54,708 nucleotides of DNA from a virus: positions 1 through 54,708 of IMG/VR virus record IMGVR_UViG_3300008120_004305. One strand, written 5' to 3'. The notes below the pieces were generated by a model, which worked only from the letters and a program-made list of their open reading frames with translations, did no database searches and was not told where the DNA came from. This document shows, piece by piece, positions 5,129-54,708 of this stretch; position 1 is the first letter of the stretch, and each line of letters opens with the position of its first letter. Position numbers and translations under genes: made by a program.

Positions 5129-5136
5129 CATAAATA
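5129..5136 (+). promoter_or_regulatory. Late promoter motif upstream of gp18
   Basis: CATAAATA, one base from the T4 late consensus TATAAATA that is read by gp55-programmed RNA polymerase. It lies about 50 bases before the sheath start, in the non-coding gap after gp17. The site is inferred by motif and position only. Confidence 0.6.
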
Positions 5137-9946: not shown

Positions 9947-10243
9947 ATGTTAACCTTTAAAGAGTTTTTGTTGTGTGAGGGTATAGTACAAACCCGTAAG
10001 GTTGGTAGAAAAAAGATTGTTAGGACTCGTATAAGAAACGGTAAGGTACAAAGAAATAAAACCTTTTCTAATGCGCCAGGTTGGATAATTCGTGGTGGTA
10101 AAATGGTTCGTATGTCGGCCCAGGAAGTTAGAAATAGACAATTAGGTAGTAGGACAGCAAAGTATAAAAGAGCAGCAAAATTAAAACAAACAATTAGAAA
10201 AAGAAAAGTATCTTTAAAAAGAAGAGGATCATTAGGATTATGA
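9947..10243 (+). CDS. Very basic prohead core / internal head protein (gp68 position)
   Basis: 98 aa, extremely rich in Arg and Lys (RKVGRKKIVRTRIRNG, then a C-terminal half dominated by K/R), fitting DNA or scaffold binding. It lies immediately before the protease gene, where T4-like phages encode gp68. The start MLTFKEFLLCEG resembles the T4 capsid-targeting leader (MKTYQEFIAEA type), with a gp21-like L-x-E cleavage site at residues 9-11. It ends in an ATGA overlap with gp21. The gp68 assignment is by position and composition. Confidence 0.65.
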   Translation: MLTFKEFLLCEGIVQTRKVGRKKIVRTRIRNGKVQRNKTFSNAPGWIIRGGKMVRMSAQEVRNRQLGSRTAKYKRAAKLKQTIRKRKVSLKRRGSLGL

Positions 10244-10893
10244 AACTAATCAAAGAGGTAAATGAGACCATCAGTTATGAGTACATTGAAGAAGCCGCTG
10301 GTAGTGGCAAAAAATCTTTATTCATTGAAGGTCCATTCTTAGTTTCCGAAAGAAAAAATAAGAACGGCCGCTTGTATGAATACAATACGATGAAAAAAGA
10401 AGTTCATCGTTATACAGAAGAATACATTAATAAGAACCGTGCATTTGGTGAATTAGGTCATCCTGACTCTCCAACCATTAATTTGGACCGAGTGGCGATT
10501 CTTATCAAAGGTTTGAGAGAAGATGGCAACCAATGGATCGGTAAAGCCAAAGTTCTCGATACACCAATGGGAACCATTGCCCGTCAATTAATTGAGGGTG
10601 GTGCTCAGTTAGGTGTATCATCTAGAGGTATGGGTTCATTGAAAAACGTTAACGGGGTTAATGTTGTTCAAAACGATTTTTATCTAGCCACAGCGGCTGA
10701 TATTGTAGCAGACCCTTCTGCACCTGGTGCTTTTGTACAAGGTATCATGGAAGGTAAAGAGTGGATGTTGGTCAATGGTGTATGGACAGAGCAGGATCAA
10801 TCTCAAGCGATACAACAAGTTCGCCAGGCCTCAAAGGCCGATATTGAGCGTGTAAGTCTACACATTTTTGAAAACTTCATGAAAAAACTTTAA
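10240..10893 (+). CDS. 21: Prohead core maturation protease gp21
   Basis: 217 aa (T4 gp21 212 aa). Serine protease of the herpesvirus-assemblin-like fold that digests the scaffold and trims capsid proteins before DNA packaging. The catalytic His is in ELGHPDS (~71-77) and the catalytic Ser in LGVSSRGMGS (~124-133). The N-terminus contains an I-x-E self-cleavage-like site (YIEEAAGSG). It overlaps the preceding basic core gene by ATGA. Confidence 0.95.
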   Translation: MKLIKEVNETISYEYIEEAAGSGKKSLFIEGPFLVSERKNKNGRLYEYNTMKKEVHRYTEEYINKNRAFGELGHPDSPTINLDRVAILIKGLREDGNQWIGKAKVLDTPMGTIARQLIEGGAQLGVSSRGMGSLKNVNGVNVVQNDFYLATAADIVADPSAPGAFVQGIMEGKEWMLVNGVWTEQDQSQAIQQVRQASKADIERVSLHIFENFMKKL

Positions 10894-10930: not shown

Positions 10931-12085
10931 ATGGGAAAATTAACAGACGCCGCTACCAACATTTTACTTGGTGAAGGTTCCAAAGAAACGTTTGATTCAA
11001 ACATTTCATCTAAATCAGGTGGCCAAGATAAGCCACAAAAGTTGCCAACATCCGTGGTCGCTGGCCAACAAGATGTTGGTGCAATTGGTGCTGTAACAGG
11101 AAAAGAAATGGATGCAAATCCAGATTATACAAAAGGTGTTCCATCAGCAACTCCTCCAGGTGCAACACCACCTGTAGGCGCACAGAAAGACGGTGTTGGT
11201 ATCTCTAAATCTACTGGTCCACAAGACAATATGGGTCGTAATGATTTGGATGCAGAACATTGCGAGCCTACAAGTTACGAAGCTATTCGTGACCGTATTG
11301 CTGGTAAATTGGCACCACAAATGATGCAAGCCAATCCAGGCGCCACATTCCAATCATACCACGAAGATATCGATGCCTTGATGCAAGGTGAAGAACTCTC
11401 TGAAGAATTCAAAAACAAAGCTGCCACAATTTTTGAAGCTGCTGTTGTTGCTCGTGCCACTCCAATCGTTGAAGAAATTCAAGCTGAGTTGATGGAGCAA
11501 TTTGAAGTTGCTTTAGAAGAAGTTAAAGAAGAAATGGCCGCTAAGGTTGATGACTATCTCAACTACATGGTTGAGGAGTGGATGAATGACAACGAACTCG
11601 CAATCGAAACTGGATTAAAAGCCGAAATTACGGAAGAATTCATTGAAGGTTTGCGTAACTTATTTGTCGAACATTACATCGATATTCCAGCCGAAAAGGT
11701 TGACATTGTTGAAGAAATGACTTCTAAGTTGGAAGAATTAGAAGATGCTTTGAATGAGCAAATCAACAAAGGTATCGAATTGTCCAAAGAATTAAACGAA
11801 CAGAAAAAAATTGAGGCTATCTACACAGCGTGTGAAGGCCTGTCGCAGACACAAGTAGAAAAATTAAAAGCACTTGCAGAAGGTGTAGAATTTACTACTG
11901 AAGAAGAATTTGCTGACAAACTATCCACTTTGAAAGAATCATATTTCAAGGCAGAAGTTAAAGTTGCTGATTCATCTGCTTTAGATGATGAAGTTACCAT
12001 TGAAGAAGAAGTTAAGAAAACCTCTTTTGCTGATCCTTCCATGGAACTTTATGCAAAAACCATTTCACAAACCCTGGTAAAATAA
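10931..12085 (+). CDS. 22: Prohead core scaffold protein gp22
   Basis: 384 aa (T4 gp22 269 aa, longer here). Major internal scaffold around which gp23 assembles. The N-terminal ~115 residues are Gly/Pro/Lys rich and disordered-looking; the remainder is long acidic helix (EVALEEVKEEMAAKVDDYLN ~188-207; KVDIVEEMTSKLEELEDALNEQ). LxE sites such as LLGEGSKET (~13-21) fit gp21 processing. A strong SD (AAGGAG) is present. It sits directly before gp23 as in T4. Confidence 0.92.
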   Translation: MGKLTDAATNILLGEGSKETFDSNISSKSGGQDKPQKLPTSVVAGQQDVGAIGAVTGKEMDANPDYTKGVPSATPPGATPPVGAQKDGVGISKSTGPQDNMGRNDLDAEHCEPTSYEAIRDRIAGKLAPQMMQANPGATFQSYHEDIDALMQGEELSEEFKNKAATIFEAAVVARATPIVEEIQAELMEQFEVALEEVKEEMAAKVDDYLNYMVEEWMNDNELAIETGLKAEITEEFIEGLRNLFVEHYIDIPAEKVDIVEEMTSKLEELEDALNEQINKGIELSKELNEQKKIEAIYTACEGLSQTQVEKLKALAEGVEFTTEEEFADKLSTLKESYFKAEVKVADSSALDDEVTIEEEVKKTSFADPSMELYAKTISQTLVK

Positions 12086-12118: not shown

Positions 12119-13450
12119 ATGTATATGACTGAAGAACTACAAAAGAAATGGAATCCAGTTCTAGAGCATCCAGAACTCGAAGCCATTAAAGACCCATACA
12201 AGAAAGCTGTTACAGCTCTTGTTTTGGAAAACCAACATCAAGCTATGGCTCAAGACCGTCAGCAGTTGAACGAATTAGCCGATAATGGTCCTACCAATAT
12301 CGCTGGTGGTGTTCAAAACTTTGACCCAATCTTGATTTCATTAGTACGCCGTGCTTTGCCAAATCTAATCGCTTATGACGTTGCTGGTGTTCAGCCAATG
12401 ACTGGTCCTACAGGTTTGATTTTTGCAATGCGTGCACGTTACAATGCTCAAACTGGTACATCGAATACTGAAGCTTTCTACAACGAGGCTAACACAGTAT
12501 TCTCTGGTAATACATCTACCAACAACCCATACGGTTTCCAAGGTAACTTGGCATCTGATACATCTACACAGTTTCAGAATCCTACTTCTGGTACAACAAC
12601 TTCTGGTATTCCTATTCCTACAGCACAAGCTGAAGTTTTAGGTTCCGATGTTGGTCAACCGTTCCAGCAGATGGCATTCACAATTGAGAAAGTTACTGTA
12701 ACTGCTCAATCCCGTGCCTTGAAAGCTGAGTACTCACTCGAATTAGCACAAGACTTAAAAGCAATTCATGGTCTTGATGCTGAAACAGAATTGTCAAACA
12801 TTCTGTCTACCGAGATCCTTGCTGAAATCAACCGTGAAGTTATCCGTACAATCTACACCTGTGCTGTTGCTGGTGCTCAGTATGGTACAACTCAAGCTGG
12901 TTATTTCGACTTAGATACCGATTCAAACGGTCGTTGGTCTGTTGAGCGTTTCAAAGGTTTGATTTTCCAAATCGAGCGTGACGCTAACGTAATTGCCAAG
13001 CAAACTCGTAGGGGTAAAGGTAACGTATTGATTGTTTCATCTGACGTAGCATCTGCAATGGCTATGGCTGGTGTTCTTTCTTACACTCCTGCTCTACAAG
13101 CTGACCTCCAAGTTGACGATACAGGCAATACATTTGCTGGTTTGTTACATGGTCGTATCAAGGTTTACATTGACCCATATTTTGGCGGATACACAAGCAA
13201 CCAAGAATTAGTCACCATCGGATACAAAGGTTCTTCACCTTACGATGCTGGTATTTTCTATTGCCCATACGTTCCTCTACAAATGGTTCGTGCAGTTGAC
13301 CAGTTCACATTCCAACCAAAGATTGGATTCAAAACTCGTTACGGCATGGTAGCAAACCCATTTGCTCAAGGTCAAGATGCTGGTTTTGGACGCTTGAATG
13401 CTCGTACAAACGTTTACTATCGTTTGTTTGGCGTCAAGAACTTGATGTAA
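12119..13450 (+). CDS. 23: Major capsid protein gp23
   Basis: 443 aa (T4 521 aa; aquatic T4-like gp23 are typically shorter). HK97-fold hexamer subunit. Diagnostic segments: RALPNLIAYDVAGVQPMTGPTGL (family core, ~76-100), FTIEKVTVTAQSRALKAEYSLELAQDLKAIHGLDAE (core part ~183-218) and the C-terminal KTRYGM region. A likely gp21 cleavage site L-N-E lies at ~50-52. The ATG at 12119 has AAGGA about 10 bases upstream; the second Met codon at 12125 is a less well-placed alternative. Confidence 0.98.
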   Translation: MYMTEELQKKWNPVLEHPELEAIKDPYKKAVTALVLENQHQAMAQDRQQLNELADNGPTNIAGGVQNFDPILISLVRRALPNLIAYDVAGVQPMTGPTGLIFAMRARYNAQTGTSNTEAFYNEANTVFSGNTSTNNPYGFQGNLASDTSTQFQNPTSGTTTSGIPIPTAQAEVLGSDVGQPFQQMAFTIEKVTVTAQSRALKAEYSLELAQDLKAIHGLDAETELSNILSTEILAEINREVIRTIYTCAVAGAQYGTTQAGYFDLDTDSNGRWSVERFKGLIFQIERDANVIAKQTRRGKGNVLIVSSDVASAMAMAGVLSYTPALQADLQVDDTGNTFAGLLHGRIKVYIDPYFGGYTSNQELVTIGYKGSSPYDAGIFYCPYVPLQMVRAVDQFTFQPKIGFKTRYGMVANPFAQGQDAGFGRLNARTNVYYRLFGVKNLM

Positions 13451-16663: not shown

Positions 16664-17614
16664 ATGATTTTAGTAACAGGTGGTGCCGGTTTCATAGGCA
16701 GTAATTTTTTATATCATTTGTATAATGAAAACCCTCATAGACAGGTAGTTTGTGTCGATAGTTTAACCTATGCGTCCAATCGAGATTATATTAAGCCTTT
16801 AATTGATTGTGGGTTTTTGATTTTTCTACAACACGATATTTCAAGCAAAAAAAATATAGAGTGGATATTCTCAGAGTTTGATCCTGAATATGTGGTAAAC
16901 TTTGCAGCAGAATCTCACGTTGATAACTCTATACATAATTACCAACCTTTTATTCAAACTAATATCTTAGGTACCATTAATTTATTAGAGTGTTCTCTCA
17001 AGTTAAAGCAACTAAAGAAGTTTGTTCATATTTCCACAGATGAAGTGTATGGTAGTTTAGAATTAGATGATGAGAATAGTTTTACAGAGAATACTCCATA
17101 TAAGCCAAACAGTCCTTACTCGGCATCTAAAGCTTGTAGTGACCATTGGGTGAGAGCATTTAATGTTACATACGGCTTGCCAACCGTCATAACAAACTGT
17201 TCCAATAACTATGGACCGGCACAAAACAAAGAAAAATTAATACCAAAAATTATTAATAATGCTTTAAATGATATTGAAATACCAATTTATGGTACTGGTG
17301 ATAATATCAGAGATTGGTTATATGTTGATGACCATTGTAAGGCAATTAACTTAGTAATGAAAAATGGCCGTGTTGGTGAAACATACAACATTGGTGGTGG
17401 CACAGAAGGTTCAAATTTAAATTTGGCAAAGACTATATTAGATATTATGGGTAAACCTCATAACCTAATTTCTTTTGTTACTGACCGTTTAGGTCATGAT
17501 AAACGATATTCAATTAATTATGACAAAATCAAAAATGAATTGGGATATACTCCGGATTATAGGTTGGAAAATGGATTAAGAATAACAATAGATTGGGTAA
17601 AGAATGGCAACTAG
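16664..17614 (+). CDS. rmlB: dTDP-glucose 4,6-dehydratase (RmlB-like)
   Basis: 316 aa from the ATG at 16664 (an in-frame GTG at 16655 is an alternative). Extended SDR that converts dTDP-glucose to dTDP-4-keto-6-deoxyglucose with bound NAD. NAD motif GGAGFIGSN (~6-14), catalytic T-D-E in ISTDEVYG (~123-130) and YSASK (~152-156); the C-terminal IGGGTEGSNL and LGHDKRYSI match RmlB. It lies between uvsW and gp55, away from the main glycan cluster at 42-52 kb, so it looks like an acquired gene serving that pathway. Confidence 0.9.
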   Translation: MILVTGGAGFIGSNFLYHLYNENPHRQVVCVDSLTYASNRDYIKPLIDCGFLIFLQHDISSKKNIEWIFSEFDPEYVVNFAAESHVDNSIHNYQPFIQTNILGTINLLECSLKLKQLKKFVHISTDEVYGSLELDDENSFTENTPYKPNSPYSASKACSDHWVRAFNVTYGLPTVITNCSNNYGPAQNKEKLIPKIINNALNDIEIPIYGTGDNIRDWLYVDDHCKAINLVMKNGRVGETYNIGGGTEGSNLNLAKTILDIMGKPHNLISFVTDRLGHDKRYSINYDKIKNELGYTPDYRLENGLRITIDWVKNGN

Positions 17615-18140
17615 GCAAAAACATTATATAAACAACGCTGACTTTCTTGCAGCCTTAGTAGATTATCAAGATAGAGTAAAGAAAGCAAAGAAGAATAAAA
17701 CAGAACTACCTCCTATACCAAATTATATTGGAGAATGTTTCATGAAAATTGCAGAAGGTCTATCTCATAAACCTAACTTCATTAACTACACCTATCGTGA
17801 TGAAATGATGTCTGATGGTATTGAAAACTGTTTAATGTATTTTGGTAATTTTGATCCAACCAAATCTAAAAATCCATTTGCCTATTTTACTCAAATTATT
17901 TACTTTGCTTTTTTACGAAGAATCTCCAAAGAAAAGAAACAAACGTATGTAAAATACAAAGCTACCGAACAGATGGGTATTTTAGATGAGCTTGAAATGA
18001 TGGAATTAGAAGATGGTACCACAAGACAATTTGAACTATACGATAATATTTCCGAGTTCATTGAAAACTTTGAAACGGCAAAAGAAAATAAAAAAGCGGC
18101 AAAGAAGCCAAAAGGGATTGAAAAATTCTTAGACGAGTGA
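17604..18140 (+). CDS. 55: Late-transcription sigma factor gp55
   Basis: 178 aa (T4 gp55 185 aa). Directs host RNA polymerase to NATAAATA late promoters with gp33 and the gp45 clamp. Family segments: NYIGECFMKIAEGLSHKPNFINYTYRDEMMSDGIENC (core ~41-77), FDPTKSKNPFAYFTQIIYFAFLRRI (~84-108), the sigma-2-like helix. The Lys-rich C-terminus ends in a short terminal helix compatible with clamp binding. It overlaps the upstream dehydratase by 11 bases. Its presence agrees with the late motifs found across the window. Confidence 0.95.
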   Translation: MATRQKHYINNADFLAALVDYQDRVKKAKKNKTELPPIPNYIGECFMKIAEGLSHKPNFINYTYRDEMMSDGIENCLMYFGNFDPTKSKNPFAYFTQIIYFAFLRRISKEKKQTYVKYKATEQMGILDELEMMELEDGTTRQFELYDNISEFIENFETAKENKKAAKKPKGIEKFLDE

Positions 18141-52795: not shown

Positions 52796-52803
52796 GATAA
52801 ATA
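52796..52803 (+). promoter_or_regulatory. Late promoter motif before the DUF6267-like gene
   Basis: GATAAATA, 44 bases before the ATG at 52848. Confidence 0.5.
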
Positions 52804-52847: not shown

Positions 52848-54038
52848 ATGCAATCGTTTTTATCATTCTTAAAAGAAGAAGCCAGCGAAGGTTCTGAACT
52901 TAAGCATATTCATCATGCTGAGGACCGTCCTTTAATGCACGGCCATGCTGGTTTTGAACACGCTCATGCGGCTTTAACTAAAGCTCATGAACATATGACC
53001 GGTGGCCACAAGAATACAAATTTAACAATGAAATACGATGGTTCTCCATCGATTGTATTTGGTCATCATCCTAAGAATGGTAAGTTCTTTGTGGCAACCA
53101 AGTCTGCCTTCAATAAGAATCCTAAGATTAACCATACAGAAAAAGATATTGATAGGAACCATGGTCACGCTCCGGGTTTAGCACATACTCTTAAACACGC
53201 TCTCAAACATCTACCAAAAGTAACACCTAAAACTGGTGTATTCCAAGGTGACTTGATGCACCACGCCGATACCAAAACCCTACACGAAGGTTATATTGTA
53301 GAAGCCAAAGGCGATGTTTCTTTTACTCCCAATACAATCACTTATACCGCCAAAGGTAAAGAAGCAGACAAGATTAAAAAGTCTAAGGTTGGCGTAGTGG
53401 TTCATACACAATACAGCCATGACTTAAAACACAATACTCCTCATGTAGATACAAGCAAATTTAAAGAGCATCCGGATGTTCATATTCACGGTGCAGAACA
53501 TGATACAAGCAAAGTAAAACATTCTGCTGAGAATGAAAAACACTTCCAAAAACACATGGCGGCCGCCAAAGATATTCACGATACTCATGGTCACAAAATG
53601 TACGATGCCGTTCATCCAAAACATAGCGGAGAACACGGACATCTTGCTACATACATAAACAAGACAGTAAGACATGATGAAGTTCCAAGTGTTAAGGGAT
53701 TCAAAGAACACTTACATGGAGAACATGAAAAACAAGCCGCAAAAGTTAAGACCGATAAAGCCAAATCTGAAAAAACTGGTGAAGGCAAGAAACAAGTTGC
53801 TCACGTTGAGAAACATAAAGAACATTATGGAAACCTATTTTCGATGCATCATCATTTACATCAAGCCAAAAATGCTTTAGTTAAATCCCTAGAAACGCAT
53901 GAGGGACACTATCAGCACCACATCGCAGGTAAGAAGTCTAAACCTGAAGGTTTCGTAGTTCACCACGATAATCAACCAACCAAATTGGTTAACCGTGCTG
54001 AGTTTGCTAAACAGAATCTTTTAAAAGTTCGTAAATGA
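52848..54038 (+). CDS. DUF6267-like protein with ligase-type KxDG motif
   Basis: 396 aa from ATG 52848 (GGAAGG SD; the GTG at 52824 is poorly placed). N-terminus MQSFLSFLKEEASEG resembles T4 capsid-targeting leaders, with an L-x-E gp21 site at 8-10. TNLTMKYDGSPSIVFG (~57-72) contains K-Y-D-G, motif I of covalent nucleotidyltransferases (RNA/DNA ligases), then KFFVATKSAFNKNPKINHT and GVFQGDLMHH, the layout of DUF6267. The protein is strikingly His-rich. Ligase activity is a hypothesis. Stop overlaps the next start (ATGA). Confidence 0.75.
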   Translation: MQSFLSFLKEEASEGSELKHIHHAEDRPLMHGHAGFEHAHAALTKAHEHMTGGHKNTNLTMKYDGSPSIVFGHHPKNGKFFVATKSAFNKNPKINHTEKDIDRNHGHAPGLAHTLKHALKHLPKVTPKTGVFQGDLMHHADTKTLHEGYIVEAKGDVSFTPNTITYTAKGKEADKIKKSKVGVVVHTQYSHDLKHNTPHVDTSKFKEHPDVHIHGAEHDTSKVKHSAENEKHFQKHMAAAKDIHDTHGHKMYDAVHPKHSGEHGHLATYINKTVRHDEVPSVKGFKEHLHGEHEKQAAKVKTDKAKSEKTGEGKKQVAHVEKHKEHYGNLFSMHHHLHQAKNALVKSLETHEGHYQHHIAGKKSKPEGFVVHHDNQPTKLVNRAEFAKQNLLKVRK

Positions 54039-54708
54039 AATCGTTTTTAGAATTAGTCGAAGAATCAAAACAAGGTGAGAAACACCATGTGTTCACTTTT
54101 GGCCGGATGAATCCGCCAACTGCAGGACATTTAAAATTAATTGACAAAGTGAAAGAAGTTGCAAAACAACACAATGCCAGCCATACAGTTGTTACTTCAC
54201 ATTCACAAGATGCCAAAAAGAATCCTTTAAGTGCTAAAGAAAAAGTTAAACACTTGCAGAAATATTCTCCTGGTACACACTTTCAAGCTTCTACAAAAGA
54301 ACATCCTACATTCTTACATCACGCAGAAAAGTTACACAAACAAGGTGTAACTCATTTACATATGGTTGTTGGTTCTGACCGTGTAAAAGAGATGAAAGAA
54401 AAGTTACACAAATACAATGGCACACACAAAGGTGCTTTACATAACTTTAAAAAGATTACTGTACATTCTGCCGGCCATCGAGATCCTGATGCAGAAGGTA
54501 CCGAAGGTGTGTCTGGTACCAAGATGAGAGAACACGCAAAAAATAAAAACTTTGGTGAGTTCCGTAAAGGTGTTCCTGCTCATGTATCAGATACTCATGC
54601 AAAAGAATTAATGCATGACACTCGTAAAGGTATGGGATTACATGAGTCCTATAATCGTGGACTATTCAAAGCAATCTTTGTAACTGGTGGTCCAGGATCC
54701 GGTAAAGA
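54035..54708 (+). CDS. Nucleotidyltransferase (NadM-like) fused to P-loop domain, 3'-truncated
   Basis: 224 codons before the window ends. N-terminal leader MKSFLELVEESKQGEK is capsid-targeting-like. Then a cytidylyltransferase-fold domain: FTFGRMNPPTAGH (~20-32) with TAGH in the HxGH position, MVVGSDRV (~109-116) and the SGTKMRE motif. At the window edge a second domain opens with a P-loop FVTGGPGSGK. NadM-type NMN adenylyltransferases fused to kinases are known in phages, so NAD metabolism is a reasonable inference. Confidence 0.8.
   Translation, partial: MKSFLELVEESKQGEKHHVFTFGRMNPPTAGHLKLIDKVKEVAKQHNASHTVVTSHSQDAKKNPLSAKEKVKHLQKYSPGTHFQASTKEHPTFLHHAEKLHKQGVTHLHMVVGSDRVKEMKEKLHKYNGTHKGALHNFKKITVHSAGHRDPDAEGTEGVSGTKMREHAKNKNFGEFRKGVPAHVSDTHAKELMHDTRKGMGLHESYNRGLFKAIFVTGGPGSGK

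Follow-up and report, generated by a model that had tools for sequence, protein, structure and literature searches.

Two adjacent enzyme genes at one end of a T4-like phage genome begin with about ten residues that resemble the leader by which T4 directs its internal proteins into the head. This raises the question of whether these enzymes are packaged in the head and carried into the next host with the phage DNA. The stretch analysed, called the window throughout, is the whole of a 54.7 kb (54,708 nt) linear virus record of a T4-like (freshwater) myovirus. It encodes a portal, gp21-like protease, gp22-like scaffold, gp23-like capsid, UvsY, a helicase and a gp55-like late sigma factor (Table 1); unlike T4, its phage has its nearest named relatives among the Kyanoviridae. 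The start of the second enzyme gene, a cytidylyltransferase, overlaps the stop of the first, which encodes a DUF6267 protein, and the window end truncates it just past the P-loop; in some relatives an extra gene lies between the two. The best explanation, which we hold to be probable, is that both enzymes, including a NadR-like one, are made late, packaged by a capsid targeting sequence (CTS) and probably ejected.

Table 1 Features of the window and of related contigs. Positions refer to the window unless a contig (L number) is given; slashes mark predicted cleavage.
Feature	Position	Strand	Evidence or remark
98-aa basic protein, leader MLTFKEFLLCE/G, T4 gp68 position	9947..10243	+	between portal and gp21
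gp21-like prohead protease, expected to remove leaders	10240..10893	+	phrog_207 1.6e-74
gp22-like scaffold (prohead core)	10931..12085	+	phrog_237 1.1e-85
gp23-like major capsid protein	12119..13450	+	phrog_138 3.8e-159
gp55-like late sigma factor	17604..18140	+	phrog_234 1.5e-61
Late promoter element GATAAATA (NATAAATA)	52796..52803	+	sequence; common to DUF6267 relatives
DUF6267 protein, 396 aa	52848..54038	+	Pfam PF19782 2.7e-95; ligase/nucleotidyltransferase-like motifs K62-x-D-G, QGD, EG-x-V
Capsid-targeting-like leader MQSFLSFLKE, DUF6267	52848..52877	+	predicted gp21 cleavage after E10
Cytidylyltransferase (NMNAT-like) domain, then P-loop domain start (TGGPGSGK)	54035..54708	+	PF01467 1.3e-08; phrog_3041 8.8e-66
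Capsid-targeting-like leader MKSFLELVEE, cytidylyltransferase	54035..54064	+	predicted cleavage after E10
~105-aa leader family, SSZBM1_191	L005:24312-24629
~105-aa leader family, SSCSM1 ORF30	L366:44215-44535
S-CREM2 gp6 (SAM lyase-family)	L007:3837-5081		virion protein with leader
S-CREM2 gp14 (APH-like kinase)	L007:10579-12846		virion protein with leader

A conserved ten-residue leader

On re-reading of the sequence, the N-termini that a sequence-only reading had given for the two enzymes proved exact: MQSFLSFLKEEASEG (MQSFLSFLKE/E) for DUF6267 and MKSFLELVEESKQGE (MKSFLELVEE/S) for the cytidylyltransferase. A search for further leaders, with the pattern ^M.{1,2}[FY]..[FLIM][LIVMF].E run on every window ORF at every start, returned these two ORFs as the sole strict matches. 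The likeness also claimed for the product of the gene at 9947 holds in part: its N-terminus (MLTFKEFLLCEG; MLTFKEFLLNEA in one relative) is a similar leader, read in relatives as MLTFKEFLLCE or MLTFKEFLLNE, but it has one extra residue ahead of L-x-E and is no strict match. As a third enzyme this gene was ruled out, its product being a small basic protein.

The leader is conserved among relatives gathered from IMG/VR. The strict pattern occurs in 98 of 104 distinct DUF6267 relatives, with F4 in 101, F7 in 100, L8 in 99 and E10 in 101; variation is seen at positions 2, 5 and 9 and in the linker that follows the leader. Among distinct cytidylyltransferases, 84 of 110 match and most of the others have V at position 7; F4 is present in all 110 and E10 in 107, with position 9 again variable. 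Because DUF6267 codons 7 and 8 vary synonymously (F as TTC in 42 and TTT in 32; L by six codons), the constraint acts on the protein. A more distant group, the cyanophage cytidylyltransferases, carries the leader in 63/63 distinct sequences, typically as MRFRQFIIEA or MRFIEFLKEA, shorter by one residue; that of S-SM2 (GU071095) reads MKSFFQFLSEAQ.

The pattern is also specific to protein starts. In the window clade it is found in 293 distinct ORFs at a start-proximal Met (5455 examined), compared with 0.31% of internal Met, and five contigs of 105-236 kb gave 10 matches as against 1 for a reversed control pattern. On stretches of the T4 genome, used as a control, it picks out IPII, IPIII and gp61.1, with a single false hit at an internal start of uvsW. 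T4 gp61.1 (54 aa; NC_000866 18966-19130) starts with the CTS-like MKTFKEFIKEDM and may itself be an internal protein.

According to a review of mutational work on T4 IPIII (PMC9026906), the first 10 residues suffice; targeting depends mainly on positions 4 and 7, whereas 8 and 10 serve processing. The leader positions conserved in the relatives are those that matter in T4 CTS genetics, and the resemblance to IPI, IPII and IPIII extends to the ten-residue length, the aromatic at 4, the hydrophobic residues at 7 and 8, and Glu at 10. Both leaders end in a gp21-type L/I-x-E motif, L-K-E/E in DUF6267 and V-E-E/S in the cytidylyltransferase, where V in P3 is less typical. The cleavage site first proposed for DUF6267, after L-K-E, is kept; for the cytidylyltransferase, L-V-E ending at residue 9 gives way to V-E-E ending at residue 10, because E10 is conserved and position 9 varies. 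The window gp23-like capsid has a candidate cleavage site of the same L-x-E type (L50-N-E52/L), which aligns near T4 gp23 SFLTE/A, although the columns do not coincide exactly. Around the site where it is known to be cut, T4 gp23 has the sequence SFLTEAEIGG, resembling the leaders SFLTE/E and SSFLTE/A.

The leader is separable from the folded domain: the AlphaFold model of DUF6267 is confident (pLDDT 84) with residues 1-19 below 50 and outside the fold, and leaderless homologues exist. Cyanophage DUF6267 proteins start without it at MAKNTHLEHLEDD, and it is absent from DUF6267 of HTVC008M and ACG-2014h and likewise from the ACG-2014h cytidylyltransferase. Homologues of this kind, keeping the domain and lacking the leader, had been named in the sequence-only reading as evidence against head delivery, and the cyanophage DUF6267 proteins rule out that both enzymes are always leader-bearing. 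Since they keep the domain, we read the leader as modular, gained or lost, rather than as meaningless. By these features the two N-termini appear to be real capsid targeting sequences, conserved as such sequences should be. On two contigs (L095:2817-3935, L145:2264-3409) the usual DUF6267 gives way to a second, diverged type with a KTDGGAS motif, which also has a leader.

Probable late expression and virion evidence from homologues

A late promoter had been noted before the DUF6267 gene, and we find it 51 nt ahead of the ATG. Its motif, NATAAATA, is the late promoter published for cyanophage S-PM2 (PMC2984593). Ahead of DUF6267, N-ATAAATA is present in 96/96 relatives, where shuffling predicts 6.8, and TATAAATA in 91/96, where it predicts 1.9; directly upstream of the cytidylyltransferase no late promoter motif was found. 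The promoter motif and the gene overlap point to late expression of the pair with the head genes. Across the window ATAAATA occurs 11 times on the plus strand and 3 times on the minus strand, other copies being at 5130, 6908, 10896, 13521, 29361, 30662 and 40295, which lie 12-96 nt upstream of ORF starts.

Published mass spectrometry has identified homologues of the cytidylyltransferase in the purified virions of four cyanophages: in S-SM1 (T4-GC190), S-CREM2 (ORF154, 3 unique peptides), S-SZBM1 (_140, 2 peptides) and S-SCSM1 (ORF91). The leader is present in 4/4 of them, as read from the genomes: MKKFSAFLNEAE in S-SM1, MKNFSSFLTEAD in S-CREM2, MRFRQFIIEAVA in S-SZBM1 and MKSFLQFLKEAAESG in S-SCSM1. 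T4-GC190 is thus a homologue of the window protein with the same leader, from which the window-clade enzyme differs by a longer C-terminal P-loop region. The pattern matches 4 of 219 CDS in S-CREM2, and all four are among the 52 virion proteins (hypergeometric p 0.0029): SAM lyase-family gp6, kinase gp14, gp136 and cytidylyltransferase gp154. Two near matches, gp13 (MKDLHSFLTEQ) and gp15 (MNFSEFNESLQ), are virion proteins as well. Among annotated matches, one of two in S-SZBM1 and one of two in S-SCSM1 are virion proteins, the S-SCSM1 counts being taken from record annotation reading 'virion protein'. Pooled over these three phages, 6/8 matches are in virions with 1.6 expected (p 0.0009), values that are not fully blind, as the pattern was set after some S-CREM2 N-termini were known; the sole blind test, S-SCSM1, is small.

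A weight matrix built from leaders of the window clade proved too stringent and failed to set the virion proteins of S-CREM2, taken together, apart from the others (Mann-Whitney p 0.22). This null is expected because most virion proteins are structural; it further indicates that leader enrichment in virions rests on few proteins. A leader-bearing family of about 105 aa (MKSFKSFLSESVNISGDFNGN) went undetected in both proteomes, S-SZBM1 and S-SCSM1. In S-SZBM1, the leaderless DUF6267 protein SSZBM1_141 was undetected and its leader-bearing neighbour _140 was detected, a single case in which absence is weak evidence.

Head packaging, as first proposed for both enzymes, is thus well supported for the cytidylyltransferase family, by leader-bearing homologues in the virions of several cyanophages. 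For DUF6267 only leader conservation, the upstream late promoter and an operon in common with the cytidylyltransferase suggest it. Because relatives of its cytidylyltransferase are known from virions, the phage of the window probably carries the enzymes in its head, and packaging here is likely.

Alternatively, the leader could serve as a helix for assembly or docking, holding the enzymes together or onto a partner in the cell, with virion detection reflecting carry-over of abundant late proteins. The proteome authors themselves raise carry-over into CsCl virions, and a translational repressor of the RegA type likewise bears the virion-protein label in S-SCSM1. The two genes are adjacent, and the first half of the phrog_455 profile (764 positions) matches DUF6267 and its second half the cytidylyltransferase, suggesting a functional complex; because it covers both domains, the two proteins may be fused in some phages. 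We nonetheless consider a docking helix unlikely: the leader is common to several unrelated families of the clade and to the T4 internal proteins, it ends in a gp21-type motif, and every strict leader protein of S-CREM2 is in the virion set.

Putative enzyme functions and other leader-bearing families

The cytidylyltransferase has both a PF01467 domain and a P-loop motif, a HIGH-type nucleotidyltransferase followed by a P-loop domain in the same order as in NadR. For a full-length relative (L092) the best fold match is NadR (6gyf, E 2.4e-07) over both domains, from a weak model (pLDDT 62, TM below 0.3); a PDB sequence search with a full-length relative gave no match. The likeliest role of this cargo would be to make or salvage NAD+ as a bifunctional, NadR-like enzyme that joins an NMN adenylyltransferase to a P-loop kinase. 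Phage NadR has been described as counteracting NAD+-depleting defences through NAD+ salvage (PMC9503650). In DUF6267, an alignment of 35 sequences has K62/D64/G65, Q133-G-D135 and E367-G-x-V370 invariant, and the motif order K-x-D-G, QGD, EG-x-V is as expected of ligase-type nucleotidyltransferases. The best Foldseek match is a DNA ligase at an insignificant E of 0.3, for which reason a ligase-like nucleotidyltransferase reaction, the likeliest function for DUF6267, is suggested by the motifs.

In the window clade the same leader also occurs on proteins whose C-terminal domain is DUF6321, on a phosphatase-like protein that matches phrog_415 of the polynucleotide-kinase family, and on families with no assigned function. 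Several of these are encoded in a variable slot that separates DUF6267 from the cytidylyltransferase. Relatives of the SAM lyase-family gp6 match the pattern in 40/63 distinct sequences, and many of the metagenomic ones have leaders such as MKSFKEFIQESSLT; the S-CRM01 kinase begins MISFDQFLSEK. One contig encodes, downstream of TATAAATA, a leader-bearing (MKTFKTFIVES) ADP-ribosyltransferase-like protein (L075:819-1520; PF03496 4e-12), which counts as one case because a search for relatives returned only itself. It may be the counterpart, in a phage related to that of the window, of T4 Alt, an ADP-ribosyltransferase packaged with a gp21-cleaved N-terminus and ejected. T4 Alt is processed at ITE-6 as well as at its C-terminus, and the enzymes of the window are different ones, a nucleotidyltransferase-kinase and DUF6267.

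This range of cargo bears on whether the proteins might act in the prohead core as minor core or assembly proteins like gp67 and gp68, with no delivery as working enzymes. The similar leader of the protein in the T4 gp68 position fits such a role, and degradation after packaging would account for the undetected 105-aa family. Against this stand the catalytic-type motifs conserved in both enzymes and the varied enzymatic cargo (SAM lyase, kinase, ADP-ribosyltransferase), which leave a core role improbable. Chance likeness of short hydrophobic N-termini is very hard to credit: the motif is short and degenerate, T4 giving one false internal match and S-SCSM1 two that are internal or unannotated, but the CTS positions stay fixed across some 100 distinct sequences in each family and the enrichment is start-specific.

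Proposed delivery and its wider reading

In the packaging and ejection model that we favour, the DUF6267-cytidylyltransferase operon would be transcribed late from the NATAAATA promoter during head building, and the enzymes would be docked within the prohead core through leader residues 4 and 7. A gp21-like protease would then cut after Glu10 (L/I/V-x-E/), freeing the mature enzymes in the head before DNA packaging, and these would exit with the DNA at the next infection. CTS-tagged cargo in T4 is reported to be both packaged and delivered (PMC9026906), and cleavage, ejection and early action of the enzymes are plausible here. As with T4 IPI, IPII and IPIII, the genome has a gp21-like protease and core proteins, and homologues of the cargo are packaged; in contrast to those small basic proteins, the cargo consists of large enzymes, whose packaging and cleavage in this phage are predicted.

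The mechanism is thus known from T4, and its use for these enzymes appears undescribed: the literature searched held no description of the CTS principle in cyanophage-type phages, and the available parts of the proteome papers on the virion 'cytidylyltransferase/NMNAT' made no mention of the leader. It would give a sequence-based explanation for the 'non-structural' enzymes that recur in cyanophage virions and that the proteome authors were unable to distinguish from carry-over. A 10-residue tag legible in DNA would predict which phage proteins are borne in the head and enter the host, and the functions of DUF6267 and T4-GC190 come within reach of direct test. Cyanomyoviruses lack alt, modA and modB according to a review (PMC2984593), and leader-based cargo could be their counterpart.

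A broader reading, which we offer tentatively and as somewhat less likely to be right than wrong, is that cyanophage-type T4-like phages carry a modular head-loaded kit, a CTS leader joined to interchangeable enzymes. Injected with the DNA, these would act ahead of any phage gene expression, restoring NAD+ or repairing RNA and blocking host defence. Its members would be the NadR-like enzyme, DUF6267, the SAM lyase, the kinase, the ADP-ribosyltransferase and the phosphatase-like protein (polynucleotide-kinase family), and, if true, it concerns phages among the commonest in water.

Two further sets of proteins carry related N-termini. S-CREM2 gp12 (L007:7704-10313; RFASFMAEAA) and S-CRM01 g128 (L365:2702-3253; SLDSFIKEAA) have a leader-like stretch near residue 17, preceded in both by a similar tryptophan-rich N-terminus; gp12 is a virion protein and is annotated as Cas9-like, with no Pfam match. 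Leader-bearing proteins ending SRINK(A/S)LRKWNC occur at L010:8705-9193, L098:13655-14488 and L095:9637-9957, with a DUF6321 match in L010 and L098; those of L095 and L098 lie shortly before membrane, lipoprotein-like and lysozyme-like genes.
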